Virus record (IMG/VR): IMGVR_UViG_3300031951_000168
Coordinates: 1-59,809 of that record
DNA length: 59,809 nt
Direction: 5' to 3' (one strand)
DNA from: a virus
Below are positions 20,534 through 58,569 of this stretch, piece by piece. The first letter of the stretch is position 1. Each line of letters opens with the position of its first letter. Position numbers and translations under genes: made by a program. Below the pieces are notes generated by a model. It saw only the letters and a list, made by a program, of their open reading frames with translations. It was not told the DNA's origin and searched no databases.

Positions 20534-20535
20534 CT

Positions 20536-22621: not shown

Positions 22622-22645
22622 TATATTACTATCAGTAGCCATGTC

Positions 22646-28346: not shown

Positions 28347-28373
28347 AAACCCCTCTTCATGAGGGGTTTTTTG
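28347..28373. terminator. convergent terminator between the two halves
   Basis: The stem AAACCCCTC (28347-28355) with GAGGGGTTT (28361-28369) and loop TTCAT is followed by TTTG on the plus strand. It terminates the rightward block strongly. The leftward gene's stop codon (28357-28359) lies inside its loop. On the minus strand the stem is followed only by TGACC, so leftward termination is weaker. Confidence 0.9.
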
Positions 28374-29798: not shown

Positions 29799-30201
29799 TT
29801 ACTTTGTGTTGGTCTATTTTATCTAAGATTAACTGCAGTAACTCATTCTTTATCAAGCCTGCTCTGGCTGCGTTCTTGAGTGCACTTATAAGCTGAAAGA
29901 GAATGAAGGGAGCACAGATAGTCTCACTTAACCAGAAAGTGCCCTCAAAGCCCTTCTCAATCATTAAAATACCTGTAAGCATAAATACCCACACCATTAA
30001 AGTTTTAAGCACGCTAAGAGCCTTATGCGTCTTAAAACCTTCCATCTTAGTTCCTGCCCAGACCCCAAAGAATCCATCTATAAACACAACAGCAACTACA
30101 GCTAAGTACTGTTCTATATTATCTGCTCCTAACTTAAGGAAGTAAGTTCCTAAAAAAGCTAAGAGAGTTGTACCTGTGTATAGTAGTGCTGATGTTTTCA
30201 T
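29782..30201 (-). CDS. phage holin (holin_4/toxin-secretion type)
   Basis: A 139-residue membrane protein. Hydrophobic stretches (LYTGTTLLAFLGTYFLKL, YLAVVAVVFIDGFFGVWAGT, LMVWVFMLTGILMI and PFILFQLISAL) give three to four membrane segments, and DGFFGVWAGTKMEGFKTHKA fits the conserved loop of holin_4-type proteins. The C-terminus is charged. It would form holes in the inner membrane at the end of infection. No endolysin is recognised next to it. Confidence 0.75.
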   Translation of the reverse strand: MKTSALLYTGTTLLAFLGTYFLKLGADNIEQYLAVVAVVFIDGFFGVWAGTKMEGFKTHKALSVLKTLMVWVFMLTGILMIEKGFEGTFWLSETICAPFILFQLISALKNAARAGLIKNELLQLILDKIDQHKVNEKQN

Positions 30202-30207
30202 TAGTTA

Positions 30208-30579
30208 TTATAGATTTACTATAGAAGGATTACCAAGTGTTGTTTGCATACCATCTTCAAAAATAATGTACCAAAAGTTACTTAAAGAGTTTAACCGAGT
30301 CTTAGAAAACTCAATTGCAATTTCTTGTAGTGCTTCTTGGCCTGAATGTTCTGTAGCATACTGATAACCCCATACTTTACCGTAAGGCAAAATAGGATAA
30401 GCAAGATTAAATACAGTTTGTAATTGTACTATCCAAGCCTGCTCATCTGTTGTTTGGTATAGTTCAGGTTGACCGCTTGTCATTTGCTGTTCTGGATCAA
30501 TATAACCATAATTAAAAATACTCGTATCAGTATAAGTGATAAAGTATGTTCTCTGTGTTGGAAATTTTATCTCGCTCAT
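30208..30579 (-). CDS. hypothetical protein (123 aa)
   Basis: A 123-residue soluble protein (MSEIKFPTQRTYFITYTDTS), rich in Tyr, Gln and Trp. The middle (WIVQLQTVFNLAYPILPYGK) looks helical. It shares one base with the repeat-protein gene, so the two are coupled. It may be an assembly helper for the repeat protein; no family is recognised. Confidence 0.65.
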   Translation of the reverse strand: MSEIKFPTQRTYFITYTDTSIFNYGYIDPEQQMTSGQPELYQTTDEQAWIVQLQTVFNLAYPILPYGKVWGYQYATEHSGQEALQEIAIEFSKTRLNSLSNFWYIIFEDGMQTTLGNPSIVNL

Positions 30580-32207: not shown

Positions 32208-32518
32208 TACTTATAAGCAATTATACTACCTGAGGAGATAGCAAATCCTGTAATAATTCCGCCACCTGGAAGGTAAGCAAACTGCTTAAACGTAACTCCA
32301 CTCATACCATTAGCAGTTAAGCGTTCTACTCCATTAACTTTAAATGAAGTAAAGACTGTGTCTTCTTGTGGTACAATTGCAGTAAACTGTACATCGTTTA
32401 CAGTTCCTGTTGAGTAACGTACAAAGCCTCCAGCTCCTGCCATTAGACCTGTACTTGCGGCAATCTGTCTTAACTTTTTAGACTGCTCATTAAATAGTTG
32501 TTCTGCATTTACGCTCAT
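32207..32518 (-). CDS. hypothetical virion-associated protein (103 aa)
   Basis: A 103-residue protein. The first 25 residues are helical (AEQLFNEQSKKLRQIAASTG); the rest is Gly-rich and beta-like (GFVRYSTGTVNDVQFTAIVP, GGGIITGFAISSGS). This looks like a short helical stem plus a beta domain, as in small fibre or head decoration proteins; the role is a guess. It shares one base with the repeat-protein gene and is the first gene after the promoter at 32557. Confidence 0.6.
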   Translation of the reverse strand: MSVNAEQLFNEQSKKLRQIAASTGLMAGAGGFVRYSTGTVNDVQFTAIVPQEDTVFTSFKVNGVERLTANGMSGVTFKQFAYLPGGGIITGFAISSGSIIAYK

Positions 32519-32556
32519 AGTATATCGGTTTTATCCCAGCCTTGTGGCTCGTATTA

Positions 32557-32586
32557 CAAAGTTACTTTTAATTCTAGTTTTGTCAA
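32557..32586 (-). promoter_or_regulatory. host-type late promoter (TTG-N19-TAACTTTG)
   Basis: On the minus strand, TTG (32586-32584), 19 bases, then TAACTTTG (32564-32557). It lies in the 73-base gap after the zincin-protein gene and would drive the 103-residue protein, repeat protein, holin, spanin and nuclease genes with a leader of roughly 33 bases. The form is that of Bacteroidota primary-sigma promoters. Confidence 0.82.
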
Positions 32587-32591
32587 GTCAT

Positions 32592-35500
32592 TTATTCAGG
32601 TGGTAGATTTCTATCTATCTCGTCCATCAATTCCCTATCCTCAGGACTAGCATTGTAAATTGAGTCATAGTAACTTGTGTTGTTGTTTAACTCTTCCTTA
32701 AGCATTTTTCTGTATTGACTTGCTTCTTTTAACACTTCTTTTCCTTTAGGACCTATTTCAAATTTAGGTTTCTTGTATCCTGTTACTTTCTTCAGAAACT
32801 TATCTCTCTGCGCAGCTTCTTTTTGACCCAACTGTTGAGACACACGTAGGTTTTCTTCGTATGACCTTAAGAAAGAATAGCCTGTTTTTGGATCAAGTAG
32901 AGCATCTTTTTCTTGAGCTAGTTTCACATACTCTACTACAAACTTTGCTCTGTCTTCTTTAGACATAGTAGTTAAACCACCGATGTTTTTAATTGCTTGT
33001 TCGTCTACTACAATCTTTGTTTTTCCTGTTGTTGGATCTGTCTCACTTGTAACGGCATCATCAATAGCTTTGATGTCTTCAGTACTCTTAAGTCTCCACC
33101 TATCCCAAATATCATCCATCCTACTGTTAATCTCGTTAAGTCTACCATATGGATTAGTAACTCCAGGAACAGGAGTAAACTTAACTTGTTGTGCAAGTCT
33201 ATAACCTGTATTACCCATAGACTTAACACCTACTTCCATACCAATAACTTTACTAAATCCTACTGCAAACTTACTTCGGCCTGTGTTAAAAGGTATAGCG
33301 GGGTTCGCCAATCTATATCCACTGCCATCACTACTCATCTCGTAGTATGGTTCATCAAATATTTCTCCAACATCACCTAAGCTTGCACCACGTTCATACC
33401 ACTTTTTAGTACGTCCTGGAATACTTGCAACAGCTTCACCTAAAAGACCATAGCCATCTAAAATCTTATCTATAGTTACAATCTGTTGTCCAAATGTTGC
33501 AACATAAGCCATACTTAAGATTCTACCTGCTACTCCTTTCTCTTCATAAGGTTTCTTAAGTGGGTCTGTTTTAAATTTATTGTATTGGATAGCTGGTGCA
33601 AATACTGGATTCAATGAACCTGCGTTTTCATCAAACATACCCAGTGCTAATTGAGCAATCAAGTACTGTGCCCAATCACTGTAATCGTCATCTTCACCTG
33701 CTCCTCTAAGAGCCTGCATAGCTGAGTTTACTATATAGTAACTTAGTAAGTACATTACACTTGCATTGGCCATGTTCCAACCTACACGTTGAGTAGCTTC
33801 CTTTTCTCTTTCAGTAAACTGATAGTCCATAGCCAAACTCATACCTTGCCTTCTTACCCCCAAAGCTTTTCTACGAACAGCACCTAAGAATGTAGAGTAC
33901 ATACCCTGATCCATTCTACCTGTAGTTATAGAAAACTTTTTACCACCATACATATTGCTTGCTTGTGGGAATAACCAAGCTTTCATCGACATGAGTGCTT
34001 TTAACCACACTACACTTTGGTAGTAGGACCTACCACGTCTCGTGTAGTTACCTTGAGTTGCAGTATAAAGTTGGAAAATTTTATCTCTCATCTCACGTTC
34101 TACTTCTTTTAACTTGTCAACTCTACTAGAGATAAATGCTTCTTCAGCTTTAATTCTAGTGTCAAACTTAGCTGCAAGTTGTTTTCCTAACTCAACCTTT
34201 TTTACTGTAGAAAGTTTGTCGTAGTTGTCAACTCCATTAGTTTGCAAGTATGAAATAATAAAGTCATTTCGTTCAGCAACTAACTCATTCAGTTTACTGC
34301 GATTAATTCCAAATACTCCTTCCTTAGGAACTAACTTACCGTCTATATAGTCATAAGCATCTTGAAGTTTAATCTTTGTTCCAGGCGCTGCGTTAGGACC
34401 TTCAAATGGTACATACGTCTTTGCCATAAACGCTTCATAGATACCCATTGTAGATATAGCCTCATTAGAAGAAAAGATTTGAGCATTATAGTTATCTCCG
34501 TTTAAGTAGCGTGTTACAAATCCTGAGTTAATTGTACGGTATAAATCAGTAGGGTCAGCAAGAGGGATGGCTCGAAAATAGATTAACTTGGCAACGTAAG
34601 GAGTCATTTTAGTCATGCCTTGCTCTAGTCCTATAATCTCAGCTCTATGGTAAGCAGCTTTTGCTACACCTGCCAACATATCTTTTTTACTTAAACCAAA
34701 CTTAGAAGTGTTTCCTACGGCATTAAGTATGTTACTAGTTATGTTTTTAACTACACGCATAGGATTCCACTTTAACACATACTTTTGGAATGTATTAGTC
34801 ATGTGGTTAACCAAACGATCAATCACTCTACTTACTGCATTGTTTCCTGTTTTGAGAGAAGCACCATAGAAAAATCTAGCAATCTGGTCATCTATCTGAG
34901 TAAGGATAAGTTCTTTCTGACTTTCGTCTGCTCCTACTACTGAGTCTACTAACTTGCCAGAAGATCTTTTAAATTTCTGCCAAACAGTTGCAGCGTCTTG
35001 AGGATTTTTTGCGCGGGCTTCTTTTCCTTTAGCAGCGTAAGTATCTCTAATAGCAAAAACTGTAGGTAATGCTTTCTGTAATCCTTTGAACTCAGCAGCA
35101 TACATTGAGTATGCATGCAATGCACCTAAGATATTATCAGTAGATGCTCCCTCAGATAGTGGCTCTTTGAACCTTGTCTTAATCAAACGTACATTAGTCT
35201 TTCTACTAATTTTCTTTTGGGCTTCTCTAATGTCTACTTCTATTTCTTCATCTCCTTGCCCTACAACGTTTTCTTTGAATGCTACCTTTAAAGACTTAAT
35301 GGCGCTATACAATTTATATAAAGGTCTGAAGTAATCAACTGTCTCTTCTTTACTTTCTTTAGATACGTTAGGCATTACATACCCTTTCAATCTCTGAGAC
35401 ACTGGCATAGAGCGCTGGTCATCTTCATAGATTGCAAGGATATCATTCATGATACCTTTTTCTTCGTCACTTAGTTTAGTGTACTCTTCGTTAACATACT

Positions 35501-38500
35501 TGTTGTCTTTAGCATCAGTACGGGGGCGTGCTTGTCCTAAGAATTTATAGTTAGGATTTTTATACTCGGTACGTATTCTAGGAGTAGCCCAGTCGAAGCT
35601 AGGGCTATCTCTTTTAATATACTTCTGGTTGTTGGGGATAGTCTTTCTCCAAATGTAAATAGGTCGCATCTCTGTAACCTCTCTCATCTCTGGCCTAGAC
35701 GAACCGTCAGGAAACACAAGCATGTTTCCTGTCTTAACCTCGTAGGTAATAGCAACGTGGTTATTCTTATACCAATCTGTTTCTCTTAATTGTTCATTCA
35801 AATACTTTCTAACAAGTATCTCCTTGAACATAGACACTATTGCTTCTTTATCACTTTCTTGGGTTTCAAAGTCTTCTGCGTTTCTACCTACAAAGTATTC
35901 ATCAGGTTGAAAGTTCTCACTACTTAACAACCTAAGTTGATTTAAAGTAAGTAAGTTTCCATTAGACATAAATGCATCAGCTTCTTTATTAGCCTGGTTG
36001 AATATGTCTGTCTTCTGTTCACCAGTTAAATCTGCCTCTAGTTTATGTTTAATTGTCTCTACTGTCTCTGTGTAGTACGGAGTATTTACTTTTGACTGCA
36101 GATTATAGAGTTCACTAAACAAAGCCTTTAAAGCATTTTGATCTGCATCAGATATGTTACTGTCTTTCTTAATCTGTTTCTTTAAATCCTCAATAGACTG
36201 TTCAATATCCTTGATAGTCTTAGTCAGTCCTTCTGCAACTAGACTACCTTGTATAGTCCCGTCTTGGTCTCTGAAACCTTTAACTGCGCTAAATAATCTT
36301 TGATACTTCTCAGTAACTTCTGGATTCTCTCCGTACTTAAGAAGGATGTTTTTAATCTGGTCACTTAAGTTTTGCTGCTTTTCAAAGAACTCAGGTAAAA
36401 TCTCAACTCTGCTATTTGCATCAAGCCAGTCTGATTGCTTTTTAATTTCAGCTTCTAACTCTAGTTTTTTGTTAAATATAAGACTCTGAATTGCTTCAGC
36501 CTGAGATAAGTCGTTAGCGATTATAGCAGCATCTAGTGTATCTTGTAAACTGCTAACCTGAGATTTAAGTTCAGATATCCTTCTAACAAATTGGTCTTTA
36601 ATCTGATTAAATTTGTTTAGAGTCTCTTCTCCAATAACAAATTCAACAACATCTAACTCCTTACGTGCTTTGTTGTAAGCAATAATAGACTCAGCTATAT
36701 CACGTTCTTTACTTCCAATAGGTTTTTCAGTACCATCTTCGTTATAGATAGAACCTAATCTCACATAAGCCCTACGCTTAGCTGCTCTTATTTCTCGCAT
36801 GGTAGGATCGTTCTCTGACTTAGAACCTCTAACAGAGTTAGTCCTAAGTACATCCAAATCCTCATCCCCAAAGACACTACTATAATTTTCTATCTCATTA
36901 AGTAACTCTTGACGTGCTTCTCTAGCATCATCACTTAATAATTTCTCTGCCTCATAGTAGTCATTTGTAAACTGAGTCTGTGAGTAGTCATCTAAAAATG
37001 TTTTTAACGCTTTTTCAGCTGCTTCAATCTTATCAACTTCTCCAGTTCTACGTGCTTTATACAAAGCATGTTGCAAATCTCCTAAGTCATTTTGAAACTC
37101 AGCCTCCTTCATAGGAGTGTTGTATACTTTCTGAGTAACTATTTTGACATTGCCTTTCTTATCATAATACTTTATAGGAACTACTCTAAAGAATCCTTCA
37201 AACTTGTCCTTAAGGCTAGAAGTTTTAACAGTAAATTGTCCTTTTACACTTTGCAGAACATTCCTACCAATCCCTTTCTTACGATTTCTTGCAGCTATAC
37301 GTTCTTCTATCTCTCTAATCTTAGCATCTTTTTCTAAGTTATCGTTAGTTGCATCTGTGGTATGCGCATTTATAAAAGCATTTACAATGTCTACAATAGG
37401 TACACCTGAAAAACCACCTACATTTAGATACCTAGTAAACATGTTTTCATTGGCCATTGCTTGGTCCATAGAAGAGTTTAATAAGGCTCTAATGTTTTCA
37501 GGAGTAGGTGCAAATGCTAGTGCTTTTTTTACATCTACGATTTGTTTATCAACGTCAAGTAGTAGTTTCTTATTACCAACCTTTTCGTAGTATGCTTTTT
37601 TCTCTAGCAATTCTGCTAACTCTTTTCTAAGAGGATGCTCAGGACTCTTCATGTCCTCAGCAATCTTAATAAATAAACGAGAAGCTACTTCTGCTACTGG
37701 ATCAAGCATGGCACGCCTAGCTCTATCTTCAATTGCATCTACAGCTGCTTTAGATTTTTTTAACTCATCCTCAATAATCTTCCGATAGTCTTCGATATTT
37801 GCTACTTCTTTCTGTAGATCTAATCGTTTCTGAGCTACGTCTCTAAGTTGCTTAGCTTCGTAGTCTGAGAAAGTAGCAAAAGTTAATTGGTCTACTAGGT
37901 TATTTTGGAAGCCCTCAATCTGTTCTCTAATACTCTGTGCAATTGCAATAGCACTATTGTACTTCTTAAGGAGTACATCAGGCCTATAGTATGACGTAGC
38001 TCTAGTTAAGATTTCTAAATCCTCTTCTAACTTAGCTGTAAACTGTCTTAACTCAACTGCAAACTGTCCAGACGCAATTAAACTTCCTGTAATATCCGAT
38101 GTAGAGATTTTACCAAAGGTATCTTGAAGACGACTGATTGCTCTCAGTTCAATTGTTTCTTTACCACCAATGTCAGTAAGGTTCTGACTCAACTGATTCC
38201 AAATTGTACTATCTACGTTACTATCAATGTATTCGTAGAAGTCAGTTAACTTACTATAGATTGTTGGCTTCTGTTCTCTGTTCTGAAAAGGCTGACTAAA
38301 CCTAACTTGATGTTCTGCTGGACTTTCTGGATAATCCTGTAGTGTCATCAAGTAATCAAAGTAGTCATCTAGGGTTTCCTGCACTTGGTCAAACATGGTA
38401 GAACCCATGTCTCCAAAGATGTATCTGTTAAGGAATCCTTTGATGCTATTCCACATCCGTTCTATGATTCCTGCAGATGCCTCTTTTTGCGCCTCTGCTA

Positions 38501-39491
38501 CTTGTAGTTGCTCTCTGAAGTAAGGATTAGACAGGAACTCAGATACAAACTCCTCTACGTTCTTAAGACCATAGTAGCTTTGTAACTCAGGATTCATGTT
38601 TCTGTACTTTTGAAAGTACTGTTCCATCTCCTGTACAAACTGTACCTCTTGTGCGTTTCTTGGATTATTTAGGATAGAGATTGTAAAAGCATGTACTGCT
38701 TCGTGGATAATCTCTCTAGCCAAGAACTTATTATCAGTAGGAGTGTAAGTTGATTTTGCAATGTATACTGTGTTTGTCTTGGGGTCGTAGAACGAACGCT
38801 GATACTCGTCAGTTACATTGAGGTCATCAAACAACGCTAACTTCAGTGTAGGATTCTTTGACATCAAGGGAGACAGCTTCTTAAGTATCTCTTGTTGGAA
38901 AGGTTCTAACTCTGAGTTACTAGCTAGGTTATCTATTAACTCTTTAAATGTTGCGTTGTTAAAATCCTGTACTGAGTCAATAACAAACTGAGGAAACTTA
39001 AACTTCTCAAGAATCTCTCTACTTATTGGATACTGTTTTTTCTCTCCTACTTTAGGTTTAACTGACAACTGGAATCTGTTTCCTACAGAAATGACTTCAT
39101 AGTTAATCATGTCAAACTTAGGATTTAACTGAATCTCTAGTCCTATGTTCTCAAGTGCTTTAGGAGAACTAAACGTTTCTCCCAAATAACCAAGTACTCC
39201 AATCTCTTCAATCTGTTCTGCTGCTTGTAGTTCTTCTTCGGACATCCCCAACTTAAGGTGTTGGTTAATCTCACGAATCTTAGGCTCACCTGCGTAGTTT
39301 ACCCGTGTGCTAGCACCGATATGTGGTTTAGTCCAATCAAAGCCAAAGTTGGCCTTGAAGGTATCTGTGGTCATAGCCTCATATACTTTCTTTCCCTCTG
39401 CTTGAGAAAAGAAAGAAGTTAGTTGATAGTACGCAGGACTATTTATAGACTTACCACTTACAGGTGATTTTATTTTAGCAATACAAGACAT
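32592..39491 (-). CDS. giant virion-type protein with zincin metallopeptidase motif
   Basis: A 2299-residue protein. Residues 263-267 (HEAVH, in IIHEAVHAF) are a zinc protease site, followed about 50 residues later by NVEEFVSEF, which could give the third Glu ligand of a gluzincin. Long coiled-coil segments fill about 430-1300. Later stretches include NPMRVVKNITSNIL and a hydrophobic span VMYLLSYYIVNSAMQAL (about residue 1917). The C-terminus is charged. Crass-like phages have such giant proteins beside the RNA polymerase; this one is probably packaged and injected. What it cleaves is unknown. It has its own promoter. Confidence 0.8.
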   Translation of the reverse strand: MSCIAKIKSPVSGKSINSPAYYQLTSFFSQAEGKKVYEAMTTDTFKANFGFDWTKPHIGASTRVNYAGEPKIREINQHLKLGMSEEELQAAEQIEEIGVLGYLGETFSSPKALENIGLEIQLNPKFDMINYEVISVGNRFQLSVKPKVGEKKQYPISREILEKFKFPQFVIDSVQDFNNATFKELIDNLASNSELEPFQQEILKKLSPLMSKNPTLKLALFDDLNVTDEYQRSFYDPKTNTVYIAKSTYTPTDNKFLAREIIHEAVHAFTISILNNPRNAQEVQFVQEMEQYFQKYRNMNPELQSYYGLKNVEEFVSEFLSNPYFREQLQVAEAQKEASAGIIERMWNSIKGFLNRYIFGDMGSTMFDQVQETLDDYFDYLMTLQDYPESPAEHQVRFSQPFQNREQKPTIYSKLTDFYEYIDSNVDSTIWNQLSQNLTDIGGKETIELRAISRLQDTFGKISTSDITGSLIASGQFAVELRQFTAKLEEDLEILTRATSYYRPDVLLKKYNSAIAIAQSIREQIEGFQNNLVDQLTFATFSDYEAKQLRDVAQKRLDLQKEVANIEDYRKIIEDELKKSKAAVDAIEDRARRAMLDPVAEVASRLFIKIAEDMKSPEHPLRKELAELLEKKAYYEKVGNKKLLLDVDKQIVDVKKALAFAPTPENIRALLNSSMDQAMANENMFTRYLNVGGFSGVPIVDIVNAFINAHTTDATNDNLEKDAKIREIEERIAARNRKKGIGRNVLQSVKGQFTVKTSSLKDKFEGFFRVVPIKYYDKKGNVKIVTQKVYNTPMKEAEFQNDLGDLQHALYKARRTGEVDKIEAAEKALKTFLDDYSQTQFTNDYYEAEKLLSDDAREARQELLNEIENYSSVFGDEDLDVLRTNSVRGSKSENDPTMREIRAAKRRAYVRLGSIYNEDGTEKPIGSKERDIAESIIAYNKARKELDVVEFVIGEETLNKFNQIKDQFVRRISELKSQVSSLQDTLDAAIIANDLSQAEAIQSLIFNKKLELEAEIKKQSDWLDANSRVEILPEFFEKQQNLSDQIKNILLKYGENPEVTEKYQRLFSAVKGFRDQDGTIQGSLVAEGLTKTIKDIEQSIEDLKKQIKKDSNISDADQNALKALFSELYNLQSKVNTPYYTETVETIKHKLEADLTGEQKTDIFNQANKEADAFMSNGNLLTLNQLRLLSSENFQPDEYFVGRNAEDFETQESDKEAIVSMFKEILVRKYLNEQLRETDWYKNNHVAITYEVKTGNMLVFPDGSSRPEMREVTEMRPIYIWRKTIPNNQKYIKRDSPSFDWATPRIRTEYKNPNYKFLGQARPRTDAKDNKYVNEEYTKLSDEEKGIMNDILAIYEDDQRSMPVSQRLKGYVMPNVSKESKEETVDYFRPLYKLYSAIKSLKVAFKENVVGQGDEEIEVDIREAQKKISRKTNVRLIKTRFKEPLSEGASTDNILGALHAYSMYAAEFKGLQKALPTVFAIRDTYAAKGKEARAKNPQDAATVWQKFKRSSGKLVDSVVGADESQKELILTQIDDQIARFFYGASLKTGNNAVSRVIDRLVNHMTNTFQKYVLKWNPMRVVKNITSNILNAVGNTSKFGLSKKDMLAGVAKAAYHRAEIIGLEQGMTKMTPYVAKLIYFRAIPLADPTDLYRTINSGFVTRYLNGDNYNAQIFSSNEAISTMGIYEAFMAKTYVPFEGPNAAPGTKIKLQDAYDYIDGKLVPKEGVFGINRSKLNELVAERNDFIISYLQTNGVDNYDKLSTVKKVELGKQLAAKFDTRIKAEEAFISSRVDKLKEVEREMRDKIFQLYTATQGNYTRRGRSYYQSVVWLKALMSMKAWLFPQASNMYGGKKFSITTGRMDQGMYSTFLGAVRRKALGVRRQGMSLAMDYQFTEREKEATQRVGWNMANASVMYLLSYYIVNSAMQALRGAGEDDDYSDWAQYLIAQLALGMFDENAGSLNPVFAPAIQYNKFKTDPLKKPYEEKGVAGRILSMAYVATFGQQIVTIDKILDGYGLLGEAVASIPGRTKKWYERGASLGDVGEIFDEPYYEMSSDGSGYRLANPAIPFNTGRSKFAVGFSKVIGMEVGVKSMGNTGYRLAQQVKFTPVPGVTNPYGRLNEINSRMDDIWDRWRLKSTEDIKAIDDAVTSETDPTTGKTKIVVDEQAIKNIGGLTTMSKEDRAKFVVEYVKLAQEKDALLDPKTGYSFLRSYEENLRVSQQLGQKEAAQRDKFLKKVTGYKKPKFEIGPKGKEVLKEASQYRKMLKEELNNNTSYYDSIYNASPEDRELMDEIDRNLPPE

Positions 39492-39495
39492 TATA

Positions 39496-39525
39496 CAAAT
39501 TTAATAGATTTTTAAACGAATGCAA
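39496..39525 (-). promoter_or_regulatory. host-type late promoter (TTG-N19-TAAATTTG)
   Basis: On the minus strand, TTG (39525-39523), 19 bases, then TAAATTTG (39503-39496), followed by TATAATG with the gene start. The promoter fills almost the whole 34-base gap after the RNA polymerase stop. The start of transcription would be about at the ATG, giving a leaderless message for the zincin protein. Confidence 0.78.
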
Positions 39526-47022: not shown

Positions 47023-47024
47023 TG

Positions 47025-50000: not shown

Positions 50001-53000
50001 TAAAGAAGTATCATCAGCCATAACTTGCCTAACAGCTTCTGCTTCCTCTGTTACTTTAGTAAGTAAGTCTTTAACCCACTCTGTGTAAGCTTCTGTCTGA
50101 GCAGCTGCATCAGTCATTCCCATTATCTCGCTAGGTGCTACAGCGTCTATAGCAGTTCCAACTACCTTAGCAATAGTTTGCTTTCTTTCTAAAACATCAT
50201 CGTATTGATTATTAAGTTCAGCAAGCATCTCAGCCAACTCATCTTGCTGTTCTTCTGTTAAGTCCGCAATTCGCTTATCGTTGTCTATAGGATCTCTTTC
50301 TTGAGTACTGATTTCTTCAGTACCATCAGGTTGCATTTCTATAGTGTCACCACTTTGTCCTGAGCTAGATACTGACTCTAAGTACATTGCAGTAACTCTT
50401 TCTGTATCTGCTTCAATTGCTTCTAACTGCTGATCAAATGATCCATTAAAATAAGCAACTAAGTCTCCGCCTCTGTCTGGAGCCATGACAGCTTGTGCTA
50501 ATACTCCTTGAAGTTCATCTTGTGATGTAATACTAGTAGGAGTAGTGGTGGGAGTTTTGTTCTCTATAGCGTCAACTAAAGGATTATAAGTGCCTCCTGC
50601 AATTGCATCTTGCTCGGCCTGCTCTCTTTCATCTTTAATCTTTTTGACGTTATCTCTGTACTGTCTAATACTTTCAACAAAGTAACCAGGTCTTCTACTT
50701 GCAACAACCGTCGCCGCATAGTCCTCAAGATTTGATCCTAAGTTTTCTATGTCTTCCGTTCTAGCAAAACGAGTTAACTGTAACTTACCATTAATACTAT
50801 TGTCAAGAACTCCTTTTTTATCTTCATCTGTTAATTGACTGTAGAAATCAGACTTCTTTTTATACTGGTCTATTGTCTTAGCTGCCTCTTCAGACATAGC
50901 TATCAGCTCTTTCTTTTGGTCTTCAGTATAAGTCTGTTTGTCTAAGGAAGTAAGTTTCTCATCAATTGAGTTTTTCTTTAAGATGTTCTTAAAGTAATCA
51001 AACTGAAGATGTTGATCTTCCATTAAATCTGTTAGCTGCTCTAGTTTCTTATTGTCTAGATTCTTAAGATTACGAACTCCGTATTCTTTTTCTATTGCCT
51101 CTAACTCTTGTATCTTACCTAAAGCAGTAGCAGCTTTGTCGGCTGTTATCTTACCTGCCTTTAACTCTTGGTCTATTTTGTTTTTATAGTACTGAGCATT
51201 AAGCATGATGTCGTACATCTCACCATACTTTCTATTTTCATTATGTGCCTTTATCTGTTTACCTGCTCCGATTGGAAACGTAAAGTAACTTCCTGAAAAT
51301 GCTGTAATCAAACCATCAACTGTTAATTCTTTTGCAGGTTCTCCTTTTAAGTTTGCTAGCCCTTCGTTATCAGCAAAGAAGTTCATTAACTCTGCTGACA
51401 CTTCTTCTATTCCTTCCTCAGTTCCACGAGCCAACATAAACCTACCTACAGAAGCTCCCTTACCAGCTAGATTCAAAGATCTTGTAGCTAAGTAATCTAA
51501 AGTCGTAGGACTAAAAGCATCACCAAAAACATTGCCATATAAAGTTCTGTATTGCTGATAACTACCTACCCAGGCTTTGCCGAAGATACCTTTCTCCGCA
51601 AAATCATCTAAGTACTTCATATCAGGAAATATGTTCTCTGTAAGAACTTCTATTCCTGTAGATATACTCGCAATTGCATGTGCCTTAGTTCTAGCATTCT
51701 CTACGCCCTTCTCGTATAAGTCTCTATAAGTAGCGACAAACTGTTGGGGGTAAACAATTGCAGTCATACTCATTGCGTTAGGTACTCTTGCACTCAACTG
51801 TTGTACTAATGGATTCTTACTAGCTGCTGTTACATTTTGAAATGCTGCTCTATAACTACCAGTCTTTGCAAGTGTGCCTGTGAATTGTGCTGCTCTTGCA
51901 CTACTCATCATTCCTTTTGCAGTTAGAGTCTTTAAATTCCTAGCCATTAATCGGCCAGCACCACCTGCAATGGCACCACCACCATACATTGACCCTACTA
52001 TTAGAGGTAACATCTCACCTCCTTGGAATACTAATGCACTTGGGTTGTACTCTCTGTTACCTTCAGCATCTTCAAAAATAAAATCTGCAGTAGTTTGATA
52101 TTGTCCTCTAGAGTTAACCTTATCAAAGTTTACTAATTCTTCAACTGTAACTGCGTTATTGAATCTACGTCCTTTTGTCTCTAGCCATTCCCAGCCTGTA
52201 GCACCTCCTAGTCCTTCAATTATGTTTCCTAAAAACTGCTGAGCTACTCCCTGTGCTACCTTTTGACCAGTACGTCCTACTATATAAGCTCCTTTAGCTA
52301 CTCCATAATCCTGCTTAAAGTAAAACTTACTTAAAGCTTCTTTCTTTTCTTCTCTTTCTACATATGTACCTAAGAAGTTAGTAAGCTCTTTGTTTGTCTT
52401 AAATGCTTCTGGATTATGAATCTCACTAGTTTTGTCAATCAACTTTTTATTAAAGTCAACACTTTGTTGCAGTACTGAGATTTCTTTCTGAATCTCCTGT
52501 AGTCTGTTTGGAGTTATAGTAGACGACTCAGCTTCTTTAACAAGTTGTTCTTGTCTTTTTACCGCAGTAATAACTTTATTGGTCAACTCAGTAGTAATAC
52601 CTTGACCTAATTGTAGGTGCGATTTGATTAAATCTCCTTTAAAGCCATCATACCTACTTTCATTAACTTCTCCTAAAGCACCAGTAGTCAATGGAGTGCC
52701 TTCTAGAAATCTCTGAAGAGCAATTTCATTTATTACCTTCTTACCCCCTGTTTCAATGTCCGCTTCAGTTAGTGCTCTATCAAGGTAGTTTTCGTTGTAG
52801 ATGTCTTTAAGTACCTTAGTAAAGTCGCTACTAACAGTAGCCAATCCACCTGCTTTGTTTTTAAAAGAGTCTAGACTTTTTAAGAAATCTTCGTCTGTTT
52901 TAAAGTTAGTTCTTAACTGTTCTAACGCACCAACTGTTTCTTTACTCTTAATAGCAGTAACTCTCTTTTCGTAGGTATCCTCAAGAGAATTCTTAAGTTT

Positions 53001-53879
53001 GTTTAACTCAAGTTTCTTTGCAGTAATCTTACCTACTCTTTCTTGGCTATCCTTAATAGATTGTTGATCTCCACTTCGAATAGCTGACTGACTCCAATAC
53101 TTAGACTGTTCCTCTAAATCTTTTAGTTGACCATCAATATCGGTATAAAGTAACTTCTTAGTTTTTACTAAATCAGGAATACTGGTAGATTTAAAGTAAT
53201 TACTAGCACTAGTTTCAAAAGACTTTACTCTCTGTTTCTCTTGTTCTTTTACTTCGGCTTGTTTTTCAGGAGTCAACATACTAGTTAAATCTCCGACTAA
53301 GCTAGTCTCAGACACAGGCTTACTTAGGATAGAAGCAGTTCTTTGAGCTGCTACTTGAATCCCTTCATTTGCATTCTTTACTCCCCAACCATTATTCTTC
53401 AGTGAATTCTCTATATAAAGTAAATCATCTTTTACTTCAATGTTCTTTTGTTGCTCTAACTCTTTCTGTGTAGGCATATACCTATCATCAAAAAAAGTTT
53501 TTAACTTCTTTTGTGAACCAGTTGCTACGGGTGCTTGAACCATACCAGGTGCATTGGCTAGGTAAGAACCGTCTCCTGTGTTTCTTTTGTAGCCTTCTTT
53601 TATCATGTCATCCCACGTTTTACTAATAGTAGTAGAAGGGGTGGGATTAGTAACCTTTGCAGGAGTTGTAGAAGCTACCCCTGGCGTATTTATATTAGTG
53701 CTAGAGGCAGTACTAGGTAAACTAGTAAGCATACTAGACTTTAAACTTTCTTGAGTATAGAAGTTTATTCTAGTTTGTGCTGCTTGTAAATCTATATTAC
53801 GGCCTTCTGCAAATGCCCTATCTGAACTAACGCCTTTTGACATCAGTCCAATTGCTTTGATTGTTCCTGGGGTGTACAT
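47025..53879 (-). CDS. giant virion-type protein with C-terminal PD-(D/E)XK nuclease
   Basis: A 2284-residue protein. The N-terminal 550 residues are charged and helical. Around 615-640 lies a Gly/Ala-rich hydrophobic stretch (LPLIVGSMYGGGAIAGGAG), and near 826 EGIEEVSAELMNFF; both recall ejection proteins that touch membrane. Residues about 1990-2190 hold a nuclease fold: GAMDIVAVD (Asp about 2090) and VHIIDFKNKKF (Asp and Lys about 2104), then a later Gln-Gln-x-x-Tyr helix (TQQTAYGVL). It is probably injected with the polymerase and could cut host or competing DNA. It precedes the RNA polymerase gene in the same operon. Confidence 0.78.
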   Translation of the reverse strand: MYTPGTIKAIGLMSKGVSSDRAFAEGRNIDLQAAQTRINFYTQESLKSSMLTSLPSTASSTNINTPGVASTTPAKVTNPTPSTTISKTWDDMIKEGYKRNTGDGSYLANAPGMVQAPVATGSQKKLKTFFDDRYMPTQKELEQQKNIEVKDDLLYIENSLKNNGWGVKNANEGIQVAAQRTASILSKPVSETSLVGDLTSMLTPEKQAEVKEQEKQRVKSFETSASNYFKSTSIPDLVKTKKLLYTDIDGQLKDLEEQSKYWSQSAIRSGDQQSIKDSQERVGKITAKKLELNKLKNSLEDTYEKRVTAIKSKETVGALEQLRTNFKTDEDFLKSLDSFKNKAGGLATVSSDFTKVLKDIYNENYLDRALTEADIETGGKKVINEIALQRFLEGTPLTTGALGEVNESRYDGFKGDLIKSHLQLGQGITTELTNKVITAVKRQEQLVKEAESSTITPNRLQEIQKEISVLQQSVDFNKKLIDKTSEIHNPEAFKTNKELTNFLGTYVEREEKKEALSKFYFKQDYGVAKGAYIVGRTGQKVAQGVAQQFLGNIIEGLGGATGWEWLETKGRRFNNAVTVEELVNFDKVNSRGQYQTTADFIFEDAEGNREYNPSALVFQGGEMLPLIVGSMYGGGAIAGGAGRLMARNLKTLTAKGMMSSARAAQFTGTLAKTGSYRAAFQNVTAASKNPLVQQLSARVPNAMSMTAIVYPQQFVATYRDLYEKGVENARTKAHAIASISTGIEVLTENIFPDMKYLDDFAEKGIFGKAWVGSYQQYRTLYGNVFGDAFSPTTLDYLATRSLNLAGKGASVGRFMLARGTEEGIEEVSAELMNFFADNEGLANLKGEPAKELTVDGLITAFSGSYFTFPIGAGKQIKAHNENRKYGEMYDIMLNAQYYKNKIDQELKAGKITADKAATALGKIQELEAIEKEYGVRNLKNLDNKKLEQLTDLMEDQHLQFDYFKNILKKNSIDEKLTSLDKQTYTEDQKKELIAMSEEAAKTIDQYKKKSDFYSQLTDEDKKGVLDNSINGKLQLTRFARTEDIENLGSNLEDYAATVVASRRPGYFVESIRQYRDNVKKIKDEREQAEQDAIAGGTYNPLVDAIENKTPTTTPTSITSQDELQGVLAQAVMAPDRGGDLVAYFNGSFDQQLEAIEADTERVTAMYLESVSSSGQSGDTIEMQPDGTEEISTQERDPIDNDKRIADLTEEQQDELAEMLAELNNQYDDVLERKQTIAKVVGTAIDAVAPSEIMGMTDAAAQTEAYTEWVKDLLTKVTEEAEAVRQVMADDTSLAQSVFYDKISYLEYKADNKEKIDKKLAEIKKIKEERKAAETPTVEETRNNVTAKEKSEETGKEVSIEVPELIQSDVTPEFAQGLTALETMPKSRLTATASQAAGDIVTDEEYNAQRGVVIQNLLGEVLGSTSLDSALAKMYSIMEAAEVSVEEKAKTLELMKKVANSEPVLEEDYTHMFELLLIKANLDLAKLKFTGPEAEVEVPAIVATQVDERTAEEIERTTAIPAPVTKKAKTKKVEAKISLPAEQPTAETNVIDTLANNQKIVSEVKVEVATTEEAKSEVQSKNQIVSTSKIYRPGDPNARTAEHFTIQEKIIESVDKEFRTVNTAVVDLFTIVEQVLGAETLVKMEEIFDEVQSKPTPERLQELRGQFLKLFPANFMDIGKIEYMFDTQMVKNVSQSDLTQVNERNLNATETEIYQVNKGRKVPEVKLKDGRIIKDTVVRESNGKLLLLKAVDVLDAKGKPITDKEGKPIVDKTWIRFEQIANPTEILAYPIIGTEPMTFTALNVLTFTVLDGDGKVQKYNNNGDKTESGNKVLITYLPTSKGKANPTPQQKAFDTMRNSVSQGERVVHNVKITGPSDSDSEVTMPDKTVKKGNYGFTFSTETLTPVDKTLPIAEVEEEKAVTQIIANKGNQQDSVNALEVLVKKAKTIPDPSKEGYLIDGERYERQSGFTRRVMGKTQVDTEDSVINMEKGAAVGNLLDIIGRDVLGGRTVKSLSEYIKEAEGMGKSLREGKGYKLEFTQEQFDALVAELESVKKELTRQGYKVYTEGLVIYRKYTQEEKVATGFAGVAGAMDIVAVDKDGGVHIIDFKNKKFKNTQTFKSSMYNSNERFPSNISKWGTQQTAYGVLSGDFGLPIRSINILAFASQYEESNGVITVNMLSKGSDQVPVLAQNKSDISDSIIRLKYDSKIAAQINSRTVKPTPQPLNKEADKVQLETIKENVPDLTDSEARNASLVLSSLGMNLNNVKSGLDSKDENPTTKNPPTC

Positions 53880-53890
53880 TTAGAATCTAA

Positions 53891-55579
53891 TTATTCGGTC
53901 TCTTTTCCTTCAAGTTTTTTCTTCATTGCTGCATTAGCTGACGCTCTAGCTTGCTCTTCTGATTGACCTAACTTGATTGCTCTTTCGTAGTTTGTATTCC
54001 ACTCTTTTTGTACTGTTTCTGATGGAGTGGCACCTCCGCTACTTTTAGAACCTCCTAGGTCTTTACGAAACTGCATTGTCTCCAAAGTTAAACCAGAGTT
54101 AAAGATATCAGTTACAGGTCTAGTTAGGAAATCATCTATTGATGTTTCCACTCTACCCAATCCCTGTGATCTGTTTAATGATACTTTATCTTTACTTCCT
54201 TTAGAACCTTCGTAAGTTCTGTAAACAGCTTGCAAAGTTCTTAACTCTCTTGCATAAAGTTCTACTTGAGTAGGACTAAGTTTTGCGGCATTCTCGTTAT
54301 TTAAGTTATAAAGTTGATTGATAACCTGATCAATTTGTTCAGAAGGTTTCTTGCTTGTGTCTAGTTTAAAGTCCTTACTCATGTAATTGGTAACTCGTTT
54401 CAAACTATTCAAGCTTACTTGACTACCTACAGAATAGTTCTCTTGCTCAAACTCAAACTGTTTAGTCAATCTACTCTGTGCACCTTGGGCAGCAATCTCA
54501 CCTAATCTGTTTCTGTGTTTCATGTTCTCCATGTACACTCTATCTTCTTTCAACTCTACTTTAACTTCTTCTTTAGTCAAGTTACCTGCAATACCACTGA
54601 TAAACCTGCTAGTGAAGAACGGAACATATTCACCCATATCAAAATCATCTGGGTTCATATTAATGTTTTCGTTAGCTGCAGTTATGTAATTCTCACTCTT
54701 TTGAATAATGCTTTCTACTTCTCTCAAGTTTGCTTTATCTTGGGCAGTCATCTTTTTTGGGTCTATAGACGTTAGCCTAGAACGTTCTTGCATTGCTTCT
54801 TTCTTAGCTTGGTCGTACATCAACTTCTCTTCTTTGTTGTGACCTACCCAAGTTTGATAAAGAACATCGTTACCTAAACGATACATATTAGCTTGTGCGT
54901 GTATCTGAAGTTGGGCTTGCTGTGCAGGAGTTAAACTGTTTTGAAGACGAGCCATGATTTGCTCTCTAGTTTTTCTTTTAACATCAACCTGTTGAATATA
55001 TCCTGCAGGACCTTCTTTAAATACAGTAGCAGTTTCAGCAGATACCTTCTCTTCAATCTCACGTAACTCCTTTGTAATATCTGTGTACTCTACATAGGCT
55101 TTGTTCTTCTGCACTTTTTTACCAAGACCACCTTTCTCAATGTGTTCTTGGATATCGTACATGTAAACTAAATCGTTATCTGCGTTTCTTTTTTCTTTAG
55201 CAACACCAGACAATTGCTTTTGGCGATTCTGATACTCTACTCCCCAATCAATACCTGCCTTAATGTACTCATCATTTTCAAAAGGTTTACCCAAGTTAAT
55301 AACAGCCTCTACGTTATTCATGTTTGAGAAATCCAAACCTGCATTCTCCTGTACGTTCTTAACTAACTTATTTAACTCTTGGTCAAAGTAATTACGTTCG
55401 TCATCTGTCAATAACATACCACGGAGTTTTCCGTAGTTATCTAGATTCTGTTTGATTTGCTTTCGACCTTCGTCATACATCTCCTGCTTCTTCATTGCAA
55501 CCTTTATAAGGTCGTCTGCAGGAAGAGCATTTACGTAATCGTTGGTGACAAATCTAGTATGTTGTGCTGAAATAGCCAT
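53891..55579 (-). CDS. virion-type coiled-coil protein (562 aa)
   Basis: A 562-residue highly charged helical protein. It starts MAISAQHTRFVTNDYVNALP, then has long segments of heptad-like character (KMTAQDKANLREVESIIQKS) and a Ser/Gly linker (about 515-520: GGSKSSGGATP) before a helical end. No enzymatic motif is seen. Its place in the tightly spaced RNA polymerase operon (11 and 12 bases to neighbours) suggests a virion cargo or scaffold that packs with the polymerase. The function is otherwise unknown. Confidence 0.7.
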   Translation of the reverse strand: MAISAQHTRFVTNDYVNALPADDLIKVAMKKQEMYDEGRKQIKQNLDNYGKLRGMLLTDDERNYFDQELNKLVKNVQENAGLDFSNMNNVEAVINLGKPFENDEYIKAGIDWGVEYQNRQKQLSGVAKEKRNADNDLVYMYDIQEHIEKGGLGKKVQKNKAYVEYTDITKELREIEEKVSAETATVFKEGPAGYIQQVDVKRKTREQIMARLQNSLTPAQQAQLQIHAQANMYRLGNDVLYQTWVGHNKEEKLMYDQAKKEAMQERSRLTSIDPKKMTAQDKANLREVESIIQKSENYITAANENINMNPDDFDMGEYVPFFTSRFISGIAGNLTKEEVKVELKEDRVYMENMKHRNRLGEIAAQGAQSRLTKQFEFEQENYSVGSQVSLNSLKRVTNYMSKDFKLDTSKKPSEQIDQVINQLYNLNNENAAKLSPTQVELYARELRTLQAVYRTYEGSKGSKDKVSLNRSQGLGRVETSIDDFLTRPVTDIFNSGLTLETMQFRKDLGGSKSSGGATPSETVQKEWNTNYERAIKLGQSEEQARASANAAMKKKLEGKETE

Positions 55580-55591
55580 AGGTTACTTATC

Positions 55592-58471
55592 TTATTTGGT
55601 TTTGGTATTTGTAGTCTTTTTAGCTTTATCTACTTCTGGGATACCTGCGGTATTACTATACATACCTTCTAGTTGAGCTGCAAATTCTTTGTCAGCATCT
55701 TTCTTTACTGTCAAGGAACGAGTCTTAGGATCGTAGTCAAAGCTACGTACAAAGTTGTTATACCAGAATTGTTTACGTGCTTCTTCCTGTTTCCATACAG
55801 ACCTCTTCTGACTAGCAGAGGCAATCAACGCTTGACGTTGTGCAGTAACTGCGTCATCTGCTTGTGCAATCAAAGTATTGTATACTCTATCCAAAGATTG
55901 CATATCGTAAACATCTTCTTGGAATCTACTTTGTGCGTTATACTGGTCAGCAGCTGCTCTTTGTTGTGCATCAAAGTTTTGCTTCTCAGAGAATACTCTC
56001 TGCTTAGCACCAAGTGTAGCAATCAAAGCTGTGTTTGGATCTCCTCCTGCATTCATAGCAGCTACATAAGAATTGTCAATATCTTGTAACTGAGGTTGAA
56101 TGTTTAATGTTTGAGGCATCAAGTAAGGAGCATTATAGTCCATAGGTGCATATGCAAACATCTGAGATGCTGCTACACCGTAAATCTCAGGAGCTAACTG
56201 AGGATAGTCAAAACCTTCAGGGTTGTACTTACCCATTGTAGCACCTTCAAGTTGTTTATTATAACCTTTTCCTGGATCTTTGCGTTTACGCTCTTCTCCT
56301 GGTTTCTCTTTAGGTTTCAAAGGTTCGTCCTCAAAGCCTAACAATTGGCCCATAGCAGTATTACCGTGTCGTCTATCATCATCAGAGATAGGCATACCTA
56401 AAAACATTTGGTCTGCTAAACCTTCGGGGGCTACTTTAAATCCTCTAAGACGGTCCTTGTCTTTACCTCTTTTTTTCTCTGCTTGTTTTACAGAAGCAAT
56501 TGCTTTGTAAGCAGCTTGATACTTTTGTACAGCATCAAGGTTTAACTCAGGGTTATCTATCTTATACCTAGTCTGACCATTAGCATCTTTGTATGCTACT
56601 GGCTTATTCTTCAAAAAAGGCAAAGAGTTAGGACTAGTTCTACCTGCCTTTACATCCTCAACAAACTGTGAAGATTCTATATAAGCTTTGTACTTCTCAG
56701 CAGCCTTTTGTCTTTGGATATCTGGATCGTATCCCTTGTCTAACTGGAAGTCAAACAACTCAGCCTCTTGGCCCATACCTTTATAGAAGTTACGGATAGC
56801 TGTTAGGTCTGAGTTTCCACCTTCTAGGATATTTACTAGTTCGTCGGCACTACTGATTTTTAAGCCTTCATTCTTTACAGTATTGTTGAATGCATCTGTT
56901 AACAATGGATTGAGTTCGTCTCCAAACTCATTCAATCTATTTCTTAATAAGTTAGTAGGGTCATTGCCATATTGCTCGGCTAATTGTTTACCTGCAAATT
57001 CTCCTTGGTTCTCAATAAAGATCTTCTTACCATTAGGTAAAGTTTTGTAGTATACAGAACTAGGGTCTGCTGCATTAGTCTTACTTTGAGTTCCTGTCTC
57101 GTCACTTAGTACTTGCTTATTCTGCTCAGTGGCTGTATTAAGACTAGGAGTAGCAGTAGCGCCTAAAGTGGCAGGGTTGTTTGGTTGATTCTGTGCAGCG
57201 TTGTAGAAAGAATAGTTATCTTCCATATTGCCAAGCATTCTAATACCTGTATCTGCATCTATTCTGCTGTTGGCTACTGCATTATCTACAGTGTCTTTTA
57301 GATTGTCTAAAAAGTCTTTTTGTCTTTTAGTCTCTGCTTCAGCTTCATCAGCTTTAGTACTTAAGTTCTCTTCATTCCAACTAGAGTAAGGCGTAGAAAA
57401 ATCCCTCTTTGTCACCGCTTGTTCGGTATAGTTAGGATTGTTGAACATTCCTTGACCCATGTAGAACCCTTTTTGTTGTTCTGGAGTTAAAACTACTGGA
57501 GCATTAGGACCAAAAAACTTTGCGTTATTAATGCGAAATTGTTCTTGCTGTTGTGGTGTAAAGATTGCAGAAGGATTGCCCATACCAAACTGACCTTTTC
57601 TCATACCTTCAGGTTCCATTTCACCAGTAGAGTTGCCGTTTATTCCTTGTTGAATCTGAAACAACTCTTGAAGTTTTTTCATGTTTCTATCAAACAAAAC
57701 TTCTGCAGTACTTCTATCAACAGCTTTAGCGTGTGGGTTGTCTAGAATTTTTTTGTACTTAGTAATGTCGTATTTTTTAGCTTCATCGCTAAACGTCTTG
57801 TTTAACCCTGGAACTTTAAGATGGTCAGAGAATACAATAGTACCTTCAGGCAATACAAAGTTTTCACCTCCTTGAGAATGCTTCTTTCCTCCTACTATGT
57901 ATGTGTCCATGTTAGGCATCATAAACATCTCACCACGCTCTAACTCTGCTTCTTCTGCACCTGAATCTGTACCTGTGCGAATCTCTGCACCATGCTTAGC
58001 ATAGATTACACCTTGGCTTCCTGGTCTTGCCATGTACTCATATTCATTAGGCATGTAACGAGGACGGTCATTTAAGTTTTGAATACGTTCGGTATTGTCT
58101 TGACGAGTTTGGATGTCATCGTAAATACCTTTAATAGCTGAGGTTGTACCTACAGCCATACGGGCATAATCTCTCCAATCTCTTTTGTAAGGTTCTGCTT
58201 CTGCCCCTACTATATTAATTTTTTCATCTCCTGCTTTCTCAGCTTTTGTATCAATAGTAACTGGGTTATACTCAGGGAGTTTAACGTTAGGTTCTGCCCC
58301 AGTACTCCAATCGTATGGAGTACCTTTACTAGGCAATGACTGAGATATATCTTTAGTAATATCAGGTATACCCAACATATCTGTTGGATTCTTAACCATA
58401 GGATCTGTTTGGTACTTCTTCTTAAAAAGTTCCGTCTTTAGACCCTTAACTCTGTTTTTTCCAGTATTCAT
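55592..58471 (-). CDS. large virion protein with GG-x-KHSQGG motif
   Basis: A 959-residue protein. Around 170-230 it has ELERGEMFMM, GGKKHSQGGENFVLPEGTIV and FSDHLKVPG, a conserved block I recall from many structural proteins of Bacteroidota phages including crAss-like ones. The middle is Asn/Gln-rich. The last third has AYAPMDYNAPYLMPQTLNIQ and Gln/Ala-rich helices. It is first in the late operon after the promoter at 58533. A structural or cargo role is likely; an exact position in the virion cannot be told. Confidence 0.75.
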   Translation of the reverse strand: MNTGKNRVKGLKTELFKKKYQTDPMVKNPTDMLGIPDITKDISQSLPSKGTPYDWSTGAEPNVKLPEYNPVTIDTKAEKAGDEKINIVGAEAEPYKRDWRDYARMAVGTTSAIKGIYDDIQTRQDNTERIQNLNDRPRYMPNEYEYMARPGSQGVIYAKHGAEIRTGTDSGAEEAELERGEMFMMPNMDTYIVGGKKHSQGGENFVLPEGTIVFSDHLKVPGLNKTFSDEAKKYDITKYKKILDNPHAKAVDRSTAEVLFDRNMKKLQELFQIQQGINGNSTGEMEPEGMRKGQFGMGNPSAIFTPQQQEQFRINNAKFFGPNAPVVLTPEQQKGFYMGQGMFNNPNYTEQAVTKRDFSTPYSSWNEENLSTKADEAEAETKRQKDFLDNLKDTVDNAVANSRIDADTGIRMLGNMEDNYSFYNAAQNQPNNPATLGATATPSLNTATEQNKQVLSDETGTQSKTNAADPSSVYYKTLPNGKKIFIENQGEFAGKQLAEQYGNDPTNLLRNRLNEFGDELNPLLTDAFNNTVKNEGLKISSADELVNILEGGNSDLTAIRNFYKGMGQEAELFDFQLDKGYDPDIQRQKAAEKYKAYIESSQFVEDVKAGRTSPNSLPFLKNKPVAYKDANGQTRYKIDNPELNLDAVQKYQAAYKAIASVKQAEKKRGKDKDRLRGFKVAPEGLADQMFLGMPISDDDRRHGNTAMGQLLGFEDEPLKPKEKPGEERKRKDPGKGYNKQLEGATMGKYNPEGFDYPQLAPEIYGVAASQMFAYAPMDYNAPYLMPQTLNIQPQLQDIDNSYVAAMNAGGDPNTALIATLGAKQRVFSEKQNFDAQQRAAADQYNAQSRFQEDVYDMQSLDRVYNTLIAQADDAVTAQRQALIASASQKRSVWKQEEARKQFWYNNFVRSFDYDPKTRSLTVKKDADKEFAAQLEGMYSNTAGIPEVDKAKKTTNTKTK

Positions 58472-58532
58472 TAACTTAAAATATTAATTAACTTTAGAAG
58501 TTAAGTATACTTGAACTTAAAAAGTTTAAATA

Positions 58533-58562
58533 CAAATATACTCTATTGTCAAGAAAAATCAA
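58533..58562 (-). promoter_or_regulatory. host-type late promoter (TTG-N19-TATATTTG)
   Basis: On the minus strand, TTG (58562-58560), 19 bases, TATATTTG (58540-58533). It sits in the 98-base gap before the 959-residue protein gene and would drive the operon that ends with the RNA polymerase. The leader of about 56 bases is very AT-rich, with several AACTTAA/TTAAGTT copies in both directions that could fold weakly. Confidence 0.83.
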
Positions 58563-58569
58563 GCCTTAC

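Follow-up and report, generated by a model that had tools for sequence, protein, structure and literature searches.

The stretch of DNA analysed here, referred to below as the window, is the IMG/VR virus record IMGVR_UViG_3300031951_000168 over positions 1-59,809 (59,809 bases), and by the genes discussed below it comes from a crAss-like phage. The right-hand part of the window is a block of genes read leftwards, and three gaps in this block carry sites of one form, TTG followed after exactly 19 bases (N19) by TAnnTTTG. In all probability these sites are promoters for the host RNA polymerase (RNAP) with the primary sigma factor of the Bacteroidota, possibly needing a phage activator as well, and the genes behind them would be late genes. 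This class of promoter is already known; what is new is its mapping in this lineage, together with a split between two signals that is discussed below.

The list of open reading frames (ORFs) gives only three gaps of more than 12 bases between 28357 and 59776, at 32519-32591 (73 bases), 39492-39525 (34 bases) and 58472-58569 (98 bases), the next largest in the leftward block being 12 and 11 bases. All three have TTG-N19-TAnnTTTG on the minus (coding) strand with a spacer of exactly 19, as the initial annotation had claimed and as both the ORF list and the sequence confirm. Late promoter 1 (TTGATTTTTCTTGACAATAGAGTATATTTG, 58533-58562, minus strand) has its TTG at 58560-58562 and its -7 box, TATATTTG, at 58533-58540, 61 bases upstream of the start of a gene for a protein of 959 amino acids (aa). 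Late promoter 2 (TTGCATTCGTTTAAAAATCTATTAAATTTG, 39496-39525, minus strand) has its TTG at 39523-39525 and the box TAAATTTG at 39496-39503, with 4 bases to the ATG; it fills its gap, the TTG following immediately on the stop codon of the RNAP gene described below. Late promoter 3 (TTGACAAAACTAGAATTAAAAGTAACTTTG, 32557-32586, minus strand) has its TTG at 32584-32586 and the box TAACTTTG at 32557-32564, with 38 bases to the ATG. With TAnnTTTG placed at -12 to -5, the TTG falls at -34 to -32.

The 30-base N19 pattern occurs 4 times in the whole window, both strands included, where 1.42 occurrences are expected, and 2 shuffles in 100 reached that count; the sites in the gaps account for three of the four. 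In dinucleotide shuffles of the individual gaps an N19 match arose 12, 13 and 123 times per 100,000 (product about 2e-11), counts that are qualified by the N19 spacing having been picked for the initial annotation after looking at the sequence; with any spacing of N17-23 permitted they become 84, 66 and 835 per 100,000. The leftward block has its 3 N19 matches on the coding strand and none on the opposite strand. TAnnTTTG alone is not special (87 in the window, 72.7 expected), and the strength of the signal is thus in box, spacing and position together and not in the -7 box by itself. The fourth N19 match, at 20525-20554 on the plus strand, was considered as the promoter of its gene, a middle gene, and rejected, since the opening codons of that gene contain its -7 box; a similar match recurs in the related records G003 and G007.

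Contig G001 (107,017 bases) comes from almost the same phage as the window and has other cut ends, the two agreeing at 24,776 of 24,882 and at 30,096 of 30,097 shared positions. The offsets put the full genome at about 112 kb (the window plus G001 24,883-76,919), of which the window would be about half. G001 encodes a Crassvirus capsid protein (PF23898, 3.5e-28) and a muzzle protein (PF25731, 5.8e-36), and a terminase and a portal protein that are recognised by PHROGs (1e-93 and 4.7e-96) and match those of crAss001 (1e-32 and 6.3e-45). Because of these crAss-type genes we assign the phage of the window, on sequence grounds, to the crAss-like phages, order Crassvirales. These capsid, muzzle, terminase and portal genes belong to a late block of about 71 kb, of which the leftward block of the window forms the end.

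The gaps orthologous to the three in the window were compared in seven records, namely G001 and six relatives. Rows are missing where a record ends before the gap or the gene caller missed the gene, and G003 row 107499, which the best score had paired with the wrong G001 gene, was excluded. The spacing is exactly N19 in 6/6 rows for promoter 1, 7/7 for promoter 2 and 5/5 for promoter 3, and the -7 box TAnnTTTG (in the narrower form TAHHTTTG) is present in the three sites of the window and in 33/33 orthologous N19 rows. Promoter 1 also has N19 in 9/9 loci examined, these being 9 of 11 loci, as L058 and L066 were omitted for duplicating the upstream sequences of L057 and L059. Outside the window four further late N19 promoters are kept in 3/3, 4/4, 4/4 and 4/4 records and one late N20 promoter in 3/3, and the promoter of the capsid operon, which stands before the gene preceding the capsid gene, has N19 in 38/38 loci with 8 distinct sequences, in a set derived from the capsid protein. 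In the case of promoter 2, 12 of the 19 spacer columns vary across the records, with boxes and length fixed, and the distance from -7 box to start codon in the six other records is 6 bases in three, 15 in one and 26 in two.

With regard to the host side, we searched 12 Bacteroidota genomes (G011-G022), named isolates from several orders chosen from at least 80 listed genome loci, for TTG-Nn-TAHHTTTG, this -7 consensus being that of PMC6847099. For n of 15, 18, 19, 20 and 21 there are 981, 1089, 1876, 1449 and 1112 matches, and for the reversed-pattern controls 1115, 1072, 1061, 1025 and 1021. N19 is the commonest of the five tested spacings in 10 of the 12 genomes, so the phage spacing is also the commonest host spacing among those tested. 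The sites thus resemble the sigma-ABfr/sigma-A promoters of the Bacteroidota (-33 TTTG, -7 TAnnTTTG) in having a -7 box without G at its free positions, in having TTG near -33, and in the spacing. They differ in having TTG and not TTTG, and in a spacer fixed at 19 with the -33 box always present. The description of the sites as of the Bacteroidota primary-sigma form stands for the -7 box, the position of TTG and the host spacing; of the published TTTG the sites have the last three bases, a TTG that at N19 is nevertheless enriched in host genomes. As a separate observation, the -33 TTG at N19 is visible genome-wide in the 12 genomes (1876 against 1061 in the control), unlike the weak -33 signal published for F. 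johnsoniae.

Beyond the window, G001 has 16 gaps of at least 13 bases in its late block, and the form is present in 8 of them (7 N19 and 1 N20). All 7 N19 matches on its late strand are in gaps; one N17 and one N20 match are inside genes. The statement that every sizeable gap in the late block holds the promoter is thus correct for the part inside the window and does not extend to the whole block.

Several points weigh against reading the sites as host primary-sigma promoters. The form is absent from the other 8 of the 16 late gaps in G001, among which are gaps of 106, 99, 83 and 62 bases, and some of the 8 contain hairpins; the gap before the portal gene lacks it in G001, and in 4/4 records of the clade, though crAss001 and cr108_1 both have it there. 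The base before TTG in the three sites is C, A and C, so that the published four-base TTTG is not matched, and in F. johnsoniae the -33 box is itself reported as weak (PMC6847099). The spacer is variable among host promoters that have been published (PMC7366714), and the fixed spacing in the phage is stricter than this. Among the 12 genomes, Proteiniphilum favours N20, Nonlabens has no excess at any tested spacing, and for Mucilaginibacter the N19 count is the highest of the five but barely above its control (159 against 154). A profile search of bacterial genomes with the capsid protein found no relatives. The compared records are related, and the conservation counts accordingly show selection and are not independent trials. 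Lastly, two sigma-70-like matches overlap one of the three gaps, gap 3.

With regard to alternatives, it is possible, although we consider it doubtful, that the late sites require a phage activator besides host RNAP. The boxes alone cannot explain the delay of late genes: in crAss001 the same boxes also stand 29 bases ahead of the TROVE gene gp96, and the early genes of crAss001 are reported to include one with a TROVE domain (PMC8375218), so that promoter type does not fix timing. There is a precedent in phage P23-45, which uses modified host RNAP for its middle and late genes (PMC10770324), and a candidate in a small ORF at 839-967 on the plus strand, with a helix-turn-helix-like match to sigma region 4 that is below threshold (E 4.8e-4). 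However, of the compared segments the 10 bases that precede TTG show the lowest similarity (pairwise identity 0.56, with 0.75 for the spacer, in a comparison restricted to rows with boxes, for which the box value is 1.0 by construction), which does not suggest an activator site directly upstream of TTG. The late genes could equally be delayed by the order in which the DNA enters or by template copy number. The ORF at 839-967 stands directly before a gap with a TATCTTTG box (1076-1083), and is a possible regulator.

We think it quite unlikely that the sites are promoters of sigma-70 type (TTGACA/TATAAT) or are read by the RNAP of the phage itself. Some sites do start with TTGAC, and the two matches overlapping gap 3 have been mentioned, but sigma-70-like sites are overall at chance level in comparison with shuffles (57 against 55.5 expected, and 18 against 25.6), and the final TTTG, with a G that TATAAT does not have, is present in 33/33 N19 rows and 38/38 capsid-operon loci. 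On these grounds sigma-70-type promoters were rejected. As for a phage RNAP, the virion RNAP of phi14:2 is described as serving early genes (PMC10136315).

A sigma factor encoded by the phage is marginally less likely again. It would account for a spacing more rigid than in published host promoters, but at E up to 1 we found region-2 matches in none of six records, and region-4 matches in five of the six, none of them above the cut-off and the best inside the portal frame; boxes and N19 also match the host form. A sigma too divergent for the models is possible, and with this qualification the candidate was rejected. Chance, by which AT-rich gaps would carry TTG and TAnnTTTG by accident, might appeal to the barely raised count of TAnnTTTG and to the 2 whole-window shuffles in 100 that reached 4 N19 matches, and can safely be dismissed on the per-gap shuffles and above all on the conservation at orthologous gaps that had not been seen when the pattern was proposed.

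If the three sites are host primary-sigma promoters, TTG near -33 and TAnnTTTG near -7, 19 bases apart, would be bound by the host holoenzyme, which would start 4-5 bases past the -7 box, as reported for F. johnsoniae (PMC6847099). Promoter 1 would head the run from the 959-aa gene (55592-58471, minus strand) to the virion RNAP gene, with two genes between. The 959-aa protein was tested as a homologue of crAss001 gp45 and did not match the named phages, so that gene order is the sole support for placing it at the gp45 position. Next are a 562-aa gene (53891-55579, minus), for which no family was matched, and a 2284-aa gene (47025-53879, minus), which has the gp47 position by gene order and no sequence match.

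The last gene of the run (39526-47022, minus) encodes a 2498-aa protein that by sequence is a homologue of the crAss-type virion RNAP, and the earlier claim that the phage encodes its own RNA polymerase is upheld to that extent. A profile of the clade proteins matches phi14:2 gp077 (2180 aa) at 1.9e-11, crAss001 gp50 at 2.3e-11 and DAC15_63 at 1.3e-8, with shuffled controls at 0.51 or above. The DxDxD catalytic motif is GGDYDIDK in the window, GSDFDIDK in phi14:2 and GSDFDVDK in crAss001, and the motif is present in 6/6 clade records with the gene. When the PDB was searched by sequence with this protein, there were chance-level matches only and no relative. The gene has no upstream gap of its own, and its transcripts would start at promoter 1, at a distance of 11.5 kb, or at a site still further upstream. 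The RNAP made from late transcripts would be packaged and would read the early genes in the next infection.

Promoter 2 would serve a 2299-aa gene (32592-39491, minus) that matches phi14:2 gp076 (2.6e-18, in a set of 18 proteins). As there are 4 bases from the -7 box to the ATG and the F. johnsoniae start is 4-5 bases past the box, the transcript is predicted to start at or beside the ATG and to be leaderless or nearly so. Such messages are a small minority in hosts of this kind: 5.5% are leaderless in F. psychrophilum (PMC9723704), and leaders of less than 10 nucleotides are about 3.7% in B. thetaiotaomicron (PMC7366714).

Promoter 3 would serve a 103-aa gene (32207-32518, minus, from the ORF list) ahead of the lysis-side genes. 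The run behind it (28653-32207, minus) includes a 542-aa protein with family matches to a PKD domain and DUF285 repeats (30579-32207, minus), a holin-like gene (29782-30201) and a DNA/RNA endonuclease (28653-29231). Within the PKD/DUF285 gene 30814-31142 repeats 31126-31457, about 330 bases at 70% identity.

The division of the block into three late units, as first proposed, is not borne out. There are no terminator-like sites in the three gaps, and across the leftward block such sites are at chance level, so that promoters 2 and 3 more likely add starts within longer, nested transcripts than define closed units. The three sites and the five outside the window would then drive the late block as nested, overlapping transcripts. 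There is a terminator-like hairpin at the junction of the two blocks (28347-28369), with its T tail on the plus strand.

Folding of two of the late leaders was unremarkable in comparison with shuffles (z about -1). The promoter-1 leader (58472-58532, minus; 61 bases) is strongly conserved, with a near-palindrome AAGTTCAAGTATACTTAACTT and a repeated AAGTTAAT, and is a possible operator or translation element. The promoter-3 leader (32519-32552, minus) opens with a small hairpin, AGCC-ACAA-GGCT, that folds no better than shuffles; in the relatives this leader has the same length and a different but very uniform sequence.

Turning to named Crassvirales, the same boxes are found in gaps before genes in crAss001 (8 N20 and 1 N19), DAC15 (8 N20 and 1 N19), phi14:2 (4 N20, 1 N19 and 1 N21) and cr108_1 (2 N20 and 1 N19), phi14:2 and cr108_1 having been scanned without their last 418 and 1437 bases. 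There are some further matches at other spacings, several of them reusing the same -7 box. In all four the boxes precede the gene that stands ahead of the capsid gene, the latter being annotated in crAss001 and cr108_1 and located by gene order in DAC15 and phi14:2; they also precede the annotated portal gene of crAss001 and of cr108_1, unlike that of our clade. The late promoters of the cultured phages crAss001, DAC15 and phi14:2 thus have identical boxes in gaps before late genes, and differ in being mostly N20 where this clade has N19.

The arrangement is like that of phi14:2 (compare also N4 and P23-45) in combining a virion RNAP homologue with host-type late promoters, both known here from sequence; P23-45 differs in having a second phage RNAP as well. 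The RNAP gene is in the late block on the structural strand both here and in phi14:2, whereas crAss001 gp49-50 are on the opposite strand. Late transcription of crAss-like phages by host RNAP had been proposed before from rifampicin and time-course work: in phi14:2 early transcription is rifampicin-resistant, and the virion RNAP is described as driving early and middle genes with late genes likely read by host RNAP (PMC10136315), and in a crAss001 time course host RNAP is the likely reader of the middle and the late genes (PMC8375218). The words promoter and sigma are absent from the main text of the review PMC10136315. Searches of the open-access literature yielded no described crAss-phage promoter motif that we recognised, which is not a claim that such a motif is unpublished; the statements on the phi14:2 RNAP are drawn from that review.

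With these sites the predicted late starts of an uncultured lineage can be given to the single base, and the sites recur before the corresponding genes in other members of the order. We suggest that they provide a rule, read from sequence, by which late operons can be drawn when the crAss-like genome is uncultured, and a contrast set when seeking the promoter of the virion RNAP. The promoter form also points to a Bacteroidota host.

The rightward block of the window had been called early, with only partial promoter matches. The partial matches are real; the label is less apt, as the recognised genes are for replication and nucleotide metabolism (family A DNA polymerase, uracil-DNA glycosylase, a DnaA-type domain, dCMP deaminase, thymidylate synthase and a weak DnaB-like match), and by analogy with crAss001 we would take the block to be mostly middle genes. 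There is also a single complete host-type promoter within it, TTG-N20-TATTTTTG at 21410-21440, directed against the block (minus strand), 19 bases before an opposing 111-aa ORF (21055-21390), with N20 kept in 5/5 records. On the rightward coding strand a conserved -7 box with no TTG at N17-22 precedes the thymidylate synthase gene (4/4 true orthologues) and the dCMP deaminase gene (3/3). The product of the former gene (22619-27694, plus) is a protein of 1691 aa of the thymidylate synthase type that includes a LAGLIDADG domain and probably bears an intein; the conserved box upstream of the gene is TATATTTG, with no TTG-containing host promoter.

The early region is probably outside the window, by its position and by the same analogy, at G001 29,296-36,700 (L016 9296-16700, minus). 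On its coding strand this region has no TTG-N17-21-TAHHTTTG and 14 copies of TTT(T/A)TTCTTT, with none of the latter on the other strand (mean 0.05 and maximum 2 in 300 shuffles). The copies sit just before start codons, often followed by a (C/T)C step and by CTA(C/T)T(A/G) near the start codon; many come after a hairpin, several without one. The stretches of G003, G005 and G008 taken as corresponding, delimited by eye, have 10, 3 and 10 copies, with none on the opposite strand. In the late block of G001 the element is absent from the coding strand and occurs twice on the opposite strand, and the gaps of that block have 8 host-type promoters. In the window the element TTTTTTCTTT occurs on the plus strand at 3600-3609, after a hairpin, and at 7356-7365, with no hairpin (folding energy about zero), before a helicase-like gene (7396-8514).

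One reading, which we put forward tentatively and rate a little below an even chance, is that the clade uses two promoter languages, the host primary-sigma form at the commonest host spacing for late genes, and TTT(T/A)TTCTTT as promoter of the crAss-type virion RNAP for early and some middle genes. Against this, the copies preceded by a hairpin could be the tails of early-type terminators; the hairpins shown for the late block are without TTT(T/A)TTCTTT. The element counts in crAss001, DAC15, phi14:2 and cr108_1 are 4, 1, 5 and 0, with no series before early genes, so that if it is a promoter it would be specific to this clade.

An Rfam search of the whole window gave no matches. Outside the window, G001 encodes a radical SAM protein like spore photoproduct lyase (L016 6824-7705, minus; PF20903, 4.1e-27) and a protein (L016 16083-16700, minus) whose match is to phrog_3704 (1.2e-38), a family of phage proteins that bears the name ferredoxin. 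Leptolyngbya phage Lbo-JY46 (PP438436.1, L054-L056), whose deposited host is a cyanobacterium, encodes a capsid protein of the Crassvirus family (PF23898, 3.1e-34) and has Bacteroidota-type boxes in its gaps, five at N20 and two at N19, plus other spacings; either its true host is a member of the Bacteroidota in the culture, or it is a crAss-like phage growing on a cyanobacterium.

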